Under the pieces are notes generated by a model that was given only the letters and a program-made list of their open reading frames with translations, had not been told where the DNA came from and did no database searches. This document shows positions 1,085 through 59,730 of a stretch of DNA of 64,000 nt, piece after piece. The stretch comes from Tridacna crocea (lineage: Eukaryota > Mollusca > Bivalvia > Cardiida > Cardiidae), in contig OX031057.1 of NCBI GenBank assembly GCA_943736015.1, forward strand, positions 42,246,501 to 42,310,500, written 5' to 3'. Both the position numbers and the translations under genes were made by a program. The first letter of the stretch is position 1; each line of letters begins with the position of its first letter.

Positions 1085-1313
1085 TTATCCCATTACCACA
1101 CAATCCCTACTTTTAACGCCCCTGAGAAAGAAGCCTTTTGAAAACACTGTGGGAAAAGGAGAAAATGCTGGTAACCAGCATTTTCTCCTTTTCCCACAGT
1201 GTTTTCTACCCTTCCCAGAACAAATTTTAATTTTTCAGGCCTCTTTATTTTGTTGTCTGTAAATGCTTTCAATTTGGACCAGTCTAAAATTTTCTCGTGT
1301 GGTAAAGAGTTAT
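1085..1313 (+). mobile_element. family A MITE, full length
   Basis: The termini are slightly worn (TTAT at each end in place of TTAA). The core palindrome is intact, and the arm variant CACTGTG is matched by CACAGTG on the other arm, so the two arms differ from the family consensus in a paired way. Confidence 0.85.
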
Positions 1314-6649: not shown

Positions 6650-6912
6650 TGGTGTGCAACACGCGAAAAGGGACATTCGGACATCTGCGTAAAGTGTCGT
6701 CTCGGATCAGCCTGGGCTGTCCGCACAGGCTAATCCGAAATGATACTTACCGTTCTAATGTGATTTTCTGTTTCGCAAAAGTCTACTGCAGGACAATATC
6801 TAATGTAGTCGTAAAGTGCCGTCTCGGATTAGCCTGCGCGGACTGCGCAGGCTAATCCGGGACGACACTTTACGCAAATGTCCGAATGCACCTTTTCGCG
6901 TATTGCACTCCA
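6650..6912. mobile_element. family C element, full length
   Basis: Terminal inverted repeats TGGTGTGCAACACGCGAAAA and GCACTCCA bracket two hairpins built on ATTAGCCTGCGC-type arms. They are separated by 'gcaaaagtctactgcagg'. The second hairpin is nearly perfect (AAGTGCCGTCTCGGATTAGC against its inverse). Confidence 0.85.
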
Positions 6913-7069
6913 TATAACTTTGAAATAACAATATTTAGAATTTCACTATCGAACTGAAAAATTCAACTCAGTTATTTTGTGGGGTAAGGGTTAACTATTT
7001 TTAACTATTTAGATGAAGAGATGAGTTTGAATATTTTAAGTACACGGATTCTATGTGCCAAGAAGTACT

Positions 7070-7299
7070 TTAGCCCTTACCCAAACAAGCCCTTGGTTTT
7101 TACGTGTCTGCAGTACAAGTCTTTTGAAAACACTGTGGGAAAAGGAGAAATTGCTCGTAACGAGCAATTTCTCCTTTTTCCCACAGTGTTTTCTATCCTT
7201 TAGGGAAACTTTCTTCCATTTTTATTAAATTTAAATTTGTCTTCTGCAAACTCTTTCAGTTTGGAAGATTCTAAAATTTGTTGTTTGGGAAAGGGTTAA
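7070..7299 (+). mobile_element. family A MITE with re-paired palindrome arms
   Basis: The TTAGCCCTTACCCAAAC end is worn at the first base; the right end is TTTGGGAAAGGGTTAA. The core differs from consensus in both arms at once: CACTGTG pairs with CACAGTG, and GAAATTGCTCG pairs with CGAGCAATTTC. Palindromy is therefore preserved despite several changes. Confidence 0.85.
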
Positions 7300-8685: not shown

Positions 8686-8914
8686 TTAATCCTCTCCTAG
8701 TTAAGCTCTGGTTTTTTACGGCTCTTAGGTTAAAGTCGTTTTAGAAAACTGTGGTAAAAGGAGAACATGCTCGTAACGAGCATTTTCTCCTGTTTCCACT
8801 GTGTTTGCTTCCCTTACGGTAAAAAATACCACCTGTTTAGCAACTCTAAATTTGTCGTCCGCAAAATCTTTCAATTCCAGCTGGCCAAAATTACCTCTTC
8901 TAGTAAAGAGTTAA
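8686..8914 (+). mobile_element. family A MITE, full length
   Basis: TTAATCCTCTCCTAGTTAAG at the left and GTAAAGAGTTAA at the right, with TTAA at both ends. The palindrome centre is GCTCGTAACGAGC. This is the paired variant also present at 7070-7299, so the two copies may share a sub-lineage. Confidence 0.8.
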
Positions 8915-13416: not shown

Positions 13417-13564
13417 AATAATTTTCAACACTGGACTTTGTGGGTAAAGGGTAAATGCTAATTAAAGGGACGGACATGTTATTACACAAATTGATATTAA
13501 ATATATGCTCTAAACTGCAATATTGAGTCACTTGTCTACAAACAAAAGCTCACGATATGCTAGC

Positions 13565-13768
13565 TATGAATGAATGAATGAGTAATGAATGAATGAATGA
13601 ATGAATGAATGAGTAATGAATGGATGAATGAATGAATGAATGAGTAATGAATGAATGAATGAATGAGTAATGAATGGATGAATGAATGAATGAATGAATG
13701 AGTAATGAATGTATGAATGAATGAATGAATGAATGAATGAATGTATAAATGAATGAATGAATGAATTT
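13565..13768. repeat. ATGA tetranucleotide microsatellite
   Basis: About 50 units of ATGA/GAAT. Imperfect units are themselves periodic: 'gagtaatgaatg' recurs four times and 'ggatg' twice, indicating recent expansion of a longer unit. Confidence 0.95.
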
Positions 13769-13795
13769 ATTTTAGGACATCAAACATTCTCTGAC

Positions 13796-14013: not shown

Positions 14014-14243
14014 TTGAACCCTTTACCAAACAATCCTTGGTTTTTACGACCCTGAGATTGAAGCCTTTTGAAAACATCGTAGGAAAAGGAGAAAATGCTG
14101 GTAACCAGCATTTTCTCCGTTTCCTACAATGTTTTCTACCCTGCTGAAAACAAATTTTAATTTTTGAGTTACGTTTATTCTATTGACTGGAAGTGTTTCC
14201 AATGTGGACAAGTCTACAAATTTGTCGTTTGGTAAAGAGTTAT
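14014..14243 (+). mobile_element. family A MITE with paired arm changes
   Basis: TTGAACCCTTTACCAAAC left and GGTAAAGAGTTAT right, one base off TTAA at each end. The core carries GTAGGAAAAGG and, on the opposite arm, TTTCCTAC, a paired change from GTGGG/CCCAC. GAGAAAATGC against GCATTTTCTC is intact. Confidence 0.85.
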
Positions 14244-18385: not shown

Positions 18386-18614
18386 TTAACTCTTTCCCAA
18401 ACAATCCCTGGTTTTTACGGGTCAGGGATAGAAGCCTTTTGAAAACATTGTGGGAAAGGAGAAAATGCTGGTAACCAGCATTTTCTCCTTTTTCCTACAA
18501 CGTTTTCTACCCAATCATATAGAAAAATTATCTTTGTAGCAACTGTTAATTTGCCATCTGCAAATTGCTTTCAATTTCGTCTGGTCCAAATTTTGCTGTT
18601 TGGGAAAGGGTTAA
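18386..18614 (+). mobile_element. family A MITE, full length
   Basis: TTAACTCTTTCCCAAAC left and TTTGGGAAAGGGTTAA right with TTAA at both ends. The arms are nearly perfect; one arm has GTGGGAAAGG and the other CCTTTTTCCTAC, so the copy has begun to decay. Confidence 0.88.
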
Positions 18615-20847: not shown

Positions 20848-21074
20848 TTAACTCTACCAAACGACAAAATTCTGGACTGGTCAAAATCTGAAAGCATTTT
20901 CAGACGACAAAGATAATACAGCTCATATGATCATGTCTGTCTTTGACTGGGAAGAAAACATTGAGGGAGAAGGAGAAAATGCTGGTTACCAGCATTTTCT
21001 CCTTCTCCCTCAATGTTTTCAAAAGGCTTCTTTCCCAGGGCCGTTGCAACTCGGGACTGTGTATTAAAGGGAAA
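20848..21074 (-). mobile_element. family A MITE with paired arm changes
   Basis: TTAACTCTACCAAACGAC left. The core has GAGGGAGAAGG matched by CCTTCTCCCTC, replacing GTGGGAAAAGG/CCTTTTCCCAC at three paired positions, so the 33-bp palindrome remains perfect. Right end GTATTAAAGGGAAA is worn. Confidence 0.85.
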
Positions 21075-22065: not shown

Positions 22066-22294
22066 TTAACCCTTTCCCAAACAATCCCTGGTTTTTACGG
22101 ATCTGGAATAGTAGCCTTTTGAAAACATTGTGGGAAAAGGAGAAAATGCTGGTAACCAGCATTTTCTCCTTTTCCCACAATGTTTTCTACTCTATCATAG
22201 ACAGAAATAATCTTTTCAGCAAGAGTTGAATTGTCGTCTGCAAATGCTTTCAGTTTGGTCAAGTCCAAAAGTTTATCGTTTGGGAAAGGGTTAA
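22066..22294 (+). mobile_element. family A MITE, near-perfect copy
   Basis: TTAACCCTTTCCCAAAC left, TTTGGGAAAGGGTTAA right, TTAA at both ends. The core 22121-22187 is a perfect 33+1+33 palindrome with centre A, the reverse complement of the archetype at 15344-15410. It is probably among the youngest copies. Confidence 0.92.
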
Positions 22295-23228: not shown

Positions 23229-23488
23229 GACTGTAACACACGAAAAGGGTTATTCAGGCATTTGCGTAAAGCGACGTCTCGGATCAGCCTGCGCAGTCCG
23301 CGCAGGCTGATCCGAGACGACACTGTACGACAACATTAGATTTTGTGCTACAGGAGACTTGTGCAAAACAGAATATTATATAAAAACGGAAAAAGACGTT
23401 TCGGATTAGCCTGCCTGGACTGCGCAGGCTGATCCGAGACGACACTATACGCAAATGTCCGAATATCCCTTTTCGGGTGTTGCAGGCA
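23229..23488. mobile_element. family C element, full length
   Basis: CTGTAACACACGAAAAGGGT left and CCCTTTTCGGGTGTTGCAGG right. Two hairpins (TCAGCCTGCGCAGTCCGCGC with its inverse, and ATTAGCCTGCCTGG with CTGCGCAGGCTGAT) flank 'tacaggagacttgtgcaaaa'. Confidence 0.8.
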
Positions 23489-31159: not shown

Positions 31160-31625
31160 TACATATCATTATTTCATGCTTTCCGGTAGGATATCGAGAA
31201 ATAGAAGTGAAAATATCTTTCGATCTTACACTAGTACCGCCAGTGAAAATACCGATTTTCACGCTCTTGTTGCCTAGGTAAATTGCGCATGCCTCACAAC
31301 CAGATGGGAAATATGACGTCATATACCTTACATTTCTTGCGCTTGACGTAATATCGTTGCTATGCGGGAGGGGTACGCCACGGGTAATAACGGAAAAGAA
31401 CTGTACTAGATTTTAATAAAGCTCCTCCCAGAAAGGGTTAAAAGCATGAAATAAATAGAATATTTGTTTTTTTCGGTGAAAGATCGAAATTTATTTCATC
31501 TCGTGAACACCATCGGTAATATTTTCACATGTGGCGCAGCCACACGTGAAAATATTACCGATGGTGTTCACGAGATGAAATAAATTTCGATCTTTCACCG
31601 AAAAAAATAAACATCCTCTATATCC
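31160..31625 (+). mobile_element. family E foldback element
   Basis: It starts TTATTTCATGCTTTCCGGTA. The right third is a hairpin of about 140 bp (31467-31607): TTTCGGTGAAAGATCG to ATTTTCAC pairs almost perfectly with its inverse around GTGGCGCAGCCAC. It contains a TGACGTCA site at 31314-31321. It is the single-copy version of the array at 51893-52790. Confidence 0.8.
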
Positions 31626-45721: not shown

Positions 45722-45982
45722 GCGAGCAACACGCGAAAAGGGGCATTCGGACATTTGCGTAAAGTGACGTTTCGGATCAGCCTGCGCAGTCCGCGCAGGC
45801 TAATCGGAAACGACACTTTCCGTTTTTATGCAATTTTCTATTTTGCGCAAGTGTACTGTAGCACAAAATCTAATGCAATCTTAAAGTGCCGTCTTGGATT
45901 AGCCTGCGCGGACTGCGCAGGCTGATCCGAGACGACACTTCACCCAAATGTCCGAATATCCCTTTTCCCATGTTGCAAGCCA
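45722..45982. mobile_element. family C element, full length
   Basis: GCGAGCAACACGCGAAAAGG left and CCTTTTCCCATGTTGCAAGC right. Both hairpins are present (TCAGCCTGCGCAGTCCGCGC; ATTAGCCTGCGCGGACTGCG with its inverse). Confidence 0.85.
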
Positions 45983-46149
45983 ATTATAGACCCATAATTA
46001 ACTGATGACTTACGTGGTATCATGTACCATGGAGATGCCAGAATGCAGCTTATTTGTTTTACATTCTTATCATTTCTTTGACAATGAAATACATGATTTA
46101 CTGAGTGTCACTCCCTTCCATTGCATTACCAGATATGCGTTTTCCTATA

Positions 46150-46412
46150 TGGAGTGCAACACGCGAAAAGGTGCACTCGGACATTTGCGTAAAGTGTCGT
46201 CCCGGATTAGCCTGCGCAGTCCGCGCAGGCTAATCCGAGACGGCACTTTACGACTACATGAGATTTCGTGCTACAGTAGACTTGCGTAAAACAGAAAATC
46301 ACATAAAATCGAAAAGTGTCGTTTCGGATTAGCCTGTGCGGACTGGGCAGGCGGATCCGAGACGACACTTCACGCAAATGTCCGAATGACCCTTTTCGCG
46401 TGTTGCACTCCA
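46150..46412. mobile_element. family C element, archetype copy
   Basis: TGGAGTGCAACACGCGAAAA and its inverse ending TTGCACTCCA are perfect 15+ bp ends. Two hairpins flank 'acagtagacttgcgtaaaac'. A 68-codon frame is open on each strand, the same peptide seen in other copies, because of the repeat's composition and symmetry. Confidence 0.88.
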
Positions 46413-53308: not shown

Positions 53309-53534
53309 GAGCCCTTTTAAAAAATCACTAGTTTTTTACGACCCTGAGAAAGAGGCCTTTTGAAAACATTGTGGGAAAAGGAGAAAATGCTGATAATCAG
53401 CAGTTTCTCCTTTTCCCGCAACGAATTCTACGCTTGTGCAACAAATTTCCATTTTACTGTTACGTTCATTTTGTTGTTTGCAAGTACTTTCAATTAGGAC
53501 CTATCTGAAATTATGTCGTTTGCTGAAGAGTTAA
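53309..53534 (+). mobile_element. family A MITE, left TTAA lost
   Basis: The left end is CCCTTTTAAAAAATCACTAG; the right end GTTTGCTGAAGAGTTAA. Core centre CTGATAATCAG carries a paired change from CTGGTAACCAG. The outer right arm is decayed (CCCGCAACGAATTC). Confidence 0.75.
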
Positions 53535-54356: not shown

Positions 54357-54610
54357 TAAAAAAGGGGACTGAATACATCTGCAAAAAGTATCGACCCATG
54401 TCAGCCTGCGCAGTCCGCGCAGGCTGACATGGGCCGAAACTTTTTGCCATCTTTAGATTTTCTGCATTTCAGAGGACTAATCTGCAGGCTGAATCAGTCG
54501 GCTGTGACGTAAAATGGGTTTTAGGGGTTTCATACCTAGATGACTAGCATGGTTTAATGTATTACGGAGATGCAATAAGCCCCCTTTTTACCAGATCTAG
54601 GCTCATTTAG
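54357..54610. repeat. family M copy, best hairpin
   Basis: 'aaaaaggggactgaatacat', ATCTGCAAAAAGTATCGACC, then CATGTCAGCCTGCGCAG with CGCGCAGGCTGACATG as a near-perfect hairpin. It ends with GCAATAAGCCCCCTTTTTAC, in part. The inverted edges (AAAAGGGG / CCCCCTTTTT) suggest the family is itself a terminal-inverted-repeat element. Confidence 0.7.
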
Positions 54611-55538: not shown

Positions 55539-55715
55539 TGGAATGCAACTCGCGAAAAAGGGACATTTGCGTAAAGTGTCGTCTCGGATCAGCCTGCGCA
55601 GTCCGCTCAGGCTAATTCTAGACAGCACTTCACGACTACATTATATTTTGAGCTACAGTAGACTTTCGCAATTTTAACAGAAAAATAAATAAAAAACCGA
55701 AACGACACTTAATGA
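55539..55715. mobile_element. family C element, truncated
   Basis: TGGAATGCAACTCGCGAAAA left, first hairpin (TCAGCCTGCGCAGTCCGCTC) and spacer 'acagtagactttcgca', then lost after AACCGAAACGACACTTAA. Confidence 0.7.
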
Positions 55716-59467: not shown

Positions 59468-59730
59468 TGGAGTGCAACACGCGAAAAGGGTCATTCGGAC
59501 ATTTGCGTAAAGTCTCGTCTCTGATCAGCGTATGCAGTCCACACAGGCTAATCCGAAACGACACTTTCCGATTTTATGTGATTTTCTGTTTTACGCAAGT
59601 CTACTGTAGCACAAAATCTAATGTAGTCGTAAAGTGCCGTCTCGGATTAGCCTGCGCGGAATGCGCAGGCTAATCCGAGACGACACTTTACGCAAATGTC
59701 CGAATGCACCTTTTCGCGTGTTGCGCTCCA
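59468..59730. mobile_element. family C element, full length
   Basis: TGGAGTGCAACACGCGAAAA left and CGTGTTGCGCTCCA right. The second hairpin (GTCTCGGATTAGCCTGCGCG with its inverse) is nearly perfect; the first has decayed (TGATCAGCGTATGCAG). Same internal spacer 'tctactgtagcacaaaatct'. Confidence 0.87.

Follow-up and report, generated by a model that had tools for sequence, protein, structure and literature searches.

In the published account of MER85/PGBD3, the transposase binds a 16 bp internal palindrome, and the piggyBac element of T. ni is described as carrying an internal repeat (PMC3459987). Conversion of a quasi-palindrome to a palindrome is reported in rad27-delta yeast, one example having 16 bp arms and a 1 bp spacer (PMC5677150), and quasi-palindrome template switching is reported in the S. 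cerevisiae lineage (PMC8604942). For the stems of RNA genes, where template switching has been proposed, multiple compensated changes were enriched over simulation in the results given, whereas single ones were not (PMC8794818).

Dozens of copies of a short repeat, here called family A, lie in a 64 kb stretch of the Tridacna crocea genome (hereafter the window; G000:C2:42246501-42310500, in a genome of 1,048,827,098 bp and 31 contigs). A sequence-only reading had drawn attention to palindromes in these copies whose two arms carried changes at mirror positions, and had proposed that either the hairpin is under selection or one arm is used as template to rewrite the other. Family A resembles MER85/PGBD3, as portrayed in the account of that element, in its TTAA target, short inverted ends, non-autonomous nature and internal palindrome (PMC3459987), and piggyBac-type transposase genes are also found in the T. 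crocea genome (118 matches to PF13843, several with long open frames). However, the MER85 palindrome is 16 bp long and sits beside one end, whereas that of family A spans 67 bp, is near-perfect and lies near the middle, and the copy number of family A is far above the 889 MER85s given there (PMC3459987). Family A also recalls quasi-palindrome correction as outlined in the reports above, in which the arms of a near-perfect inverted repeat come to match more closely, at times through several changes together (PMC5677150, PMC8604942, PMC8794818); unlike those systems, it presents standing variation among many copies of one element rather than a time series with a parental state. The palindromic MITEs and IESs described from Blepharisma are comparable in being abundant, non-autonomous and in some cases palindromic, but are of another superfamily (Pogo/Tigger for BogoMITE) and another biology (PMC9942856). 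A limited literature search turned up nothing published on mirrored changes in the palindromes of MITEs, which is weak evidence of absence.

An abundant TTAA-flanked element with a palindromic core

Family A is a non-autonomous, TTAA-flanked DNA element of about 230 bp, a piggyBac-like MITE. Its 5' end starts with TTAACCCTTT and its 3' end closes with AAAGGGTTAA, short inverted ends of the form CCCTTT/AAAGGG; the termini of piggyBac-type MITEs are short inverted repeats beginning CCC(T), and TTAA is the habitual target of piggyBac-type elements. In the subfamily A1 element at 22067-22293 (forward strand), which has a perfect consensus palindrome and TTAA at both ends, the terminal inverted repeats matched over 17 bp, in keeping with the ends of a piggyBac-type MITE, and the ends of subfamily A3 fit as well. 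Near the middle lies a 67 bp palindrome of 33 mirror pairs around a 1 nt centre, reading GAAAACATTGTGGGAAAAGGAGAAAATGCTGGT A ACCAGCATTTTCTCCTTTTCCCACAATGTTTTC in element orientation; pairs are numbered from 1 (outermost) to 33 (innermost).

A TTAA target-site duplication was seen as TTAA on both sides of 74 of the 97 copies with complete ends. When the two flanks of a copy were joined, 15 of 72 gave matches spanning the junction, with three clear cases. The elements at L024:8935-9161 and L027:6014-6240 occupy the same site of another repeat, whose uninterrupted counterpart, with a single TTAA, is found at L014:5785-5908 and in further copies in L008 and L027. Within the window, the element at 18387-18613 (forward strand) is nested inside a second family A copy, inserted at the latter's TTAA, its joined flanks matching uninterrupted family A across one TTAA. 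Four of five abutting pairs of family A elements share one TTAA, two of those four being duplicates of each other. Elements in opposite orientation with one TTAA in common abut at L013:6371-6822, L013:7225-7675 and L026:84-528, the two L013 pairs being the mutual duplicates.

An nhmmer model of family A (227 positions) gave 292 placements in 364 kb, and outside the window the family covered 40,317 of 300,000 sampled bases (about 13%). The exact core 62-mer with consensus arms occurs 31,189 times genome-wide. The family is thus short, high-copy and presumably non-coding, as MITEs are, and with a model of 227 positions the element is too short to encode a transposase. Four of the piggyBac-type transposase matches share the same 624-aa open frame with near-equal scores (G000:C10:28376412, C18:30428954, C3:66851558 and C4:69349889), as expected of recent activity. 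Family A also recurs, with identical copies, in a manner resembling tandem arrays at L016:921-9486 (spacing of about 2.1 kb) and L017:709-9048 (3.27 kb).

Paired differences mark inherited families

From the 364 kb we took 206 copies with a core and set aside 11 that matched another copy of their own stretch at 95% identity or more, leaving 195, which a first labelling by core states divided into A1 (158 copies), A3 (16), A2 (15) and A4 (6). Relative to A1, the consensus core of A2 is changed at pair 8, that of A4 at pairs 8, 26 and 31, and that of A3 at pairs 14, 21, 26 and 31, in every case on both sides. Those of A1, A2 and A4 are perfect palindromes, as is the A2 element at 1087-1312 (forward strand) with its CACTGTG/CACAGTG pairing, and that of A3 has one split pair, pair 13, which is G.C in 7 of 16 copies and G.T in another 7. 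The flanks of A3 are quite different from those of the other families; its architecture is alike.

A FastTree phylogeny was built from the flanks without the core for 147 of the 195 copies, the other 48 having fewer than 120 flank letters; several of its deeper nodes are poorly supported (0.1 to 0.7). Ten A3 copies form one clade on this tree (support 1.0), and A4 is nested among A1. The family A element at 7069-7299 (forward strand; nhmmer match 7072-7298, with TTAG-CCCTT on the left and AAAGGG-TTAA on the right), whose palindrome had been quoted as 7128-7193, belongs to A4 and falls within a clade of six copies (support 0.86), joined by the element at 8688-8913 as sister (seven copies, support 0.91). 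Four of its five clade-mates have pairs 26 and 31 both paired, and the fifth has pair 26 and half of pair 31. The sister element (forward strand) has the A4 states at pairs 8 and 31, not that at pair 26, together with seven one-sided changes. Pair 8 requires eight changes for 17 copies, which implies either poor resolution of the tree at this point or repeated origin of the state. Since the changes at pairs 8, 26 and 31 are common, in whole or in part, to a flank-tree clade, the copy at 7128-7193 inherited its paired changes, which mark the A4 family. An origin at the 7128 locus itself was ruled out on the same ground. For this locus, inheritance together with the preponderance of one-sided changes described below largely answers to what the sequence-only reading had said would refute it.

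The four pairings on which the sequence-only reading rested all exist, and the palindromes are real, but its list of paired changes was selective and left off unpaired changes in the same copies. At the A4 element, the left arm (7126-7158, 33 nt, forward strand) carries the A4 haplotype CACTGTG...AAATTGCTCG and does pair as CACTGTG/CACAGTG, although the core, which spans 7126-7193, is not a fully intact palindrome because the right arm (7160-7193, 34 nt, forward strand) has one T more than the left (five T against four A). The core at 14070-14136 (forward strand) is changed on both sides at pair 12 (G.C to A.T, the GTAGG/CCTAC pairing), but is mismatched through one-sided changes at pairs 9 and 18; that at 53362-53428 (forward strand) is changed on both sides at pair 32 (CTGAT/ATCAG), but has one-sided changes at five further pairs. 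Only the core at 20954-21020, in the reverse-strand element at 20852-21071, was just as described: a perfect 67 bp palindrome with pairs 11 and 16 changed on both sides, both changes private, and no unpaired change.

Over the 195 copies, 5064 pair cells were intact, 936 changed on one side, 160 changed on both sides with complementarity kept, and 70 changed on both sides without it. The 160 paired cells compare with 45.6 expected from shuffling (sd 6.3, maximum 65 in 500 shuffles), a null that ignores relatedness; 90 of them belong to five change types, chiefly those marking A2, A3 and A4. On the flank tree these five types account for 66 cells with a minimum of 18 origins. In contrast, one-sided changes needed at least 574 origins for 586 cells, and the remaining paired changes (32 cells, 32 origins) and both-sided non-matching changes (38 cells, 38 origins) were all private. 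As one-sided changes are private on the tree, copies decay freely after insertion, in place, without upkeep and mostly one-sidedly.

Among 153 low-divergence copies there were 486 one-sided and 27 paired changes, so individual copies are not being maintained intact where they lie. The suggestion that the hairpin is preserved in genomic copies does not hold, as one-sided changes were not strongly depleted (486 against 526 under the null, sd 9), and the deficit of 8% stems from the small paired excess. One-sided states even recur within families, with A.C at pair 10 in 4 of 15 A2 copies, A.C at pair 12 in 5 of 15, and G.T at pair 13 in 7 of 16 A3 copies, which means that any correction is slow. 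On the flank tree, over copies of all families, the pair 10 state showed no sharing by descent (7 cells, 7 origins), and slight sharing was seen for A.C at pair 12 (15 cells, 12 origins) and G.T at pair 13 (11 cells, 8 origins).

A small excess of private paired changes

Private paired changes exceeded expectation under two nulls, neither of which removes small hidden subfamilies within A1. The 145 copies whose cores diverge by no more than 15% were scored against family consensus, giving 437 one-sided cells and 36 double cells, the latter including 22 paired-complementary ones; permuting right arms within blocks of similarly diverged copies gave 12.0 paired cells (sd 3.0, maximum 21 in 300). 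In the 153 copies with no more than 10 changed sites, for which copy L015/6862 was relabelled from A3 to A4 because its flanks group with A4, the 27 paired changes compare with 10.9 (sd 3.2, maximum 23 in 2000) under a parametric null that keeps site and base rates. Both comparisons thus show an excess of changes that match the opposite arm, as expected of template switching. Though real, the excess is small, amounting to about 16 of the 531 changed pairs (3%). A cruder count of co-change at mirror positions that ignored complementarity gave 59 against 50.9 (sd 5.2) in 119 A1 copies, indicating that the signal sits in complementarity and is small, and mirrored positions in the flanks showed no co-change (326 against 325.3, sd 9.6). 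Sliding the pairs in the 145 copies lowered the paired count from 22 at offset 0 to between 2 and 9 at offsets 1-4; the permutation and parametric nulls are fairer, since slid pairs are non-complementary in the consensus.

Two copies carried two private paired changes and nothing else, where 0.004 would be expected per sample: the core at 20954-21020 and L019/7815-7938, which is changed at pairs 6 and 8. A genome-wide search with the 24-mer of the 20954-21020 core found 53 arm matches, with both arms present at that locus only and 51 other arm places; scaling up the 55 consensus arms seen in 300 kb gives an expectation of about 0.007 loci with it in both arms. One arm of this haplotype with a consensus partner arm was found as six exact 49-mers, counting the T centre only.

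For the L019 double change, exact 62-mers numbered 31,189 with consensus arms, 45 with the left arm only changed, 31 with the right arm only changed and 7 with both changed, the last against 0.045 expected (p 2.8e-13 if copies are independent). Given the left-arm double change, the right arm was consensus in 45 copies and carried both changes in 7, while 3 copies were changed there at pair 8 alone and 3 at pair 6 alone (odds ratio 35, p 4e-5). The seven both-arm copies may be one amplified event rather than seven, and the probability of a single chance origin followed by amplification is about 0.04. What may be several mirrored changes made together is seen in the 7 both-arm copies against 3 and 3 partial ones, although the 7 may share a common descent, and in the two double-paired copies. 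Because left-only and right-only copies occur in similar numbers (45 and 31) and 1304 copies are a single mismatch off, many of the one-sided doubles could have arisen by independent mutation; they serve here only as a denominator. On these grounds, the idea that one-sided double haplotypes are inherited one-sided subfamilies later corrected at single loci was dropped.

Possible origins of the paired changes

We lean, with a little better than even confidence, towards quasi-palindrome template switching, probably together with preferential amplification of symmetric cores, as the explanation of the paired differences between families. With its near-perfect 33 bp stem and 1 nt centre, the core would, by its architecture, be a good substrate for template switching. 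The hairpin would fold during replication or repair and one arm might occasionally be copied over the other, removing the mismatch through what we infer to be quasi-palindrome template switching, whereby one-sided changes would become paired ones. Elements with a symmetric core may be preferentially amplified, which would probably aid this step, and in a lineage that stays active for long, mismatches would be resolved in one direction or the other. Such copying in active lineages would account for old differences being paired and young ones not, and the turning of one-sided into paired changes for family consensus cores that are set apart almost entirely by paired changes. That one arm is, on rare occasions, rewritten from the other is supported, not proven: the earlier proposal that one arm serves as template finds support, as a rare process, in the 27 paired changes against 10.9, the two double-paired copies and the 7 both-arm copies against 0.045, and does not extend to the 7128 locus, where the changes are inherited. 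The lack of enrichment for single compensated changes in RNA-gene stems, in the comparison presented there, counts against arm-copying (PMC8794818), and arm-copying alone does not predict the bias towards complement swaps (GC/CG, AT/TA) in four of the five main paired types against 3 of 32 other paired cells, which is unexplained. More tentatively, and with considerable doubt, new families might arise when a mismatch spreads between the arms in one step in an active copy, restoring a perfect palindrome that amplifies. If so, the genome would be a natural template-switching assay, its replicate hairpins numbering in the tens of thousands or more. Were arm-copying the source of the paired changes, covariation in a hairpin could not on its own be taken to show that structure is under selection, and with tens of thousands of copies of one palindrome to draw on, one could determine directly how fast, and in which direction, template switching proceeds in a large eukaryotic genome.

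The main rival is selection on transposing elements, which may act alongside arm-copying and may be the reason for the almost exclusively paired differences between families. The core would be a two-fold symmetric site for a transposase or host factor, with half-sites that would have to change together in transposing elements while dead copies decay freely; we regard this as unlikely, though it has several results on its side. Family consensus cores are perfect (A1, A2, A4) or have one split pair (A3) while copies decay one-sidedly, and the core diverges less than the flanks both from consensus (9.3% against 20-21%, 84 copies) and between members of the 48 closest pairs (8.4% against 13.9%). 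Pair strength is kept in four of the five main paired types, and the account of MER85/PGBD3 and T. ni describes internal palindromes that piggyBac-type transposases bind or need (PMC3459987). However, selection leaves the private double paired changes unexplained, and the one-sided states that recur in A2 and A3, in part through shared descent, point to some tolerance of asymmetry, an argument weakened because the sharing is slight at pairs 12 and 13 and absent at pair 10. A half-site of 33 bp is also long for a dyad binding site. If selection is the source, the symmetric core of 67 bp would represent a type of internal site new to piggyBac-like MITEs.

That shared descent and chance suffice, every paired change being inherited or coincidental given many copies and few amplified families, seems to us improbable. 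Five types do make up 90 of the 160 paired cells, the changes at 7128 are inherited, and the L019 double change could have arisen once by chance and then been amplified (p about 0.04), but several independent unlikely origins would be required, for the five main types and for two double-paired copies among 195 (0.004 expected), and the both-arm haplotype at 20954 is unique. Exchange between elements by gene conversion or recombination, moving whole cores among families, is very improbable. It would fit the presence of the pair 31 and pair 26 states in both A3 and A4, the latter nested among A1, and transfer of an inner core would carry both arms together; against it, the element at 8688-8913, with the A4 states at pairs 8 and 31 and not at pair 26, fits stepwise change, and the genome-wide 24-mer search found no donor with the 20954 haplotype in both arms. 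We give scarcely any credence to the hairpin being kept because it acts as RNA, as a small-RNA precursor: a transcript would be a near-perfect stem, and in five copies the strand, when folded with DNA parameters, gave energies of -25.3 to -37.5 kcal/mol, but copies decay one-sidedly.

Other repeats

A second palindromic family, B (GCGTAAAGTG...), shows a family-wise pattern like that of family A. With 57 of its 62 copies used, there were 272 one-sided and 82 paired cells, and 55 of the 82 fell at a cluster of five neighbouring columns, 14, 16, 18, 19 and 20. In the window, family B (GCGTAAAGTGTCGTCTCGGATCAGCCTGCGC...) lies at 451-539, 6679-6895, 23256-23472, 45749-46395, 54379-54467, 55561-55655 and 59497-59713. 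Near-perfect foldback repeats with arms of 68-69 nt and a 3 nt spacer were seen three times in the 364 kb, at 31467-31607 in the window, L023:5952-6092 and L011:2923-3061, and a long ATGA-type microsatellite array occupies 13560-13770 of the window.
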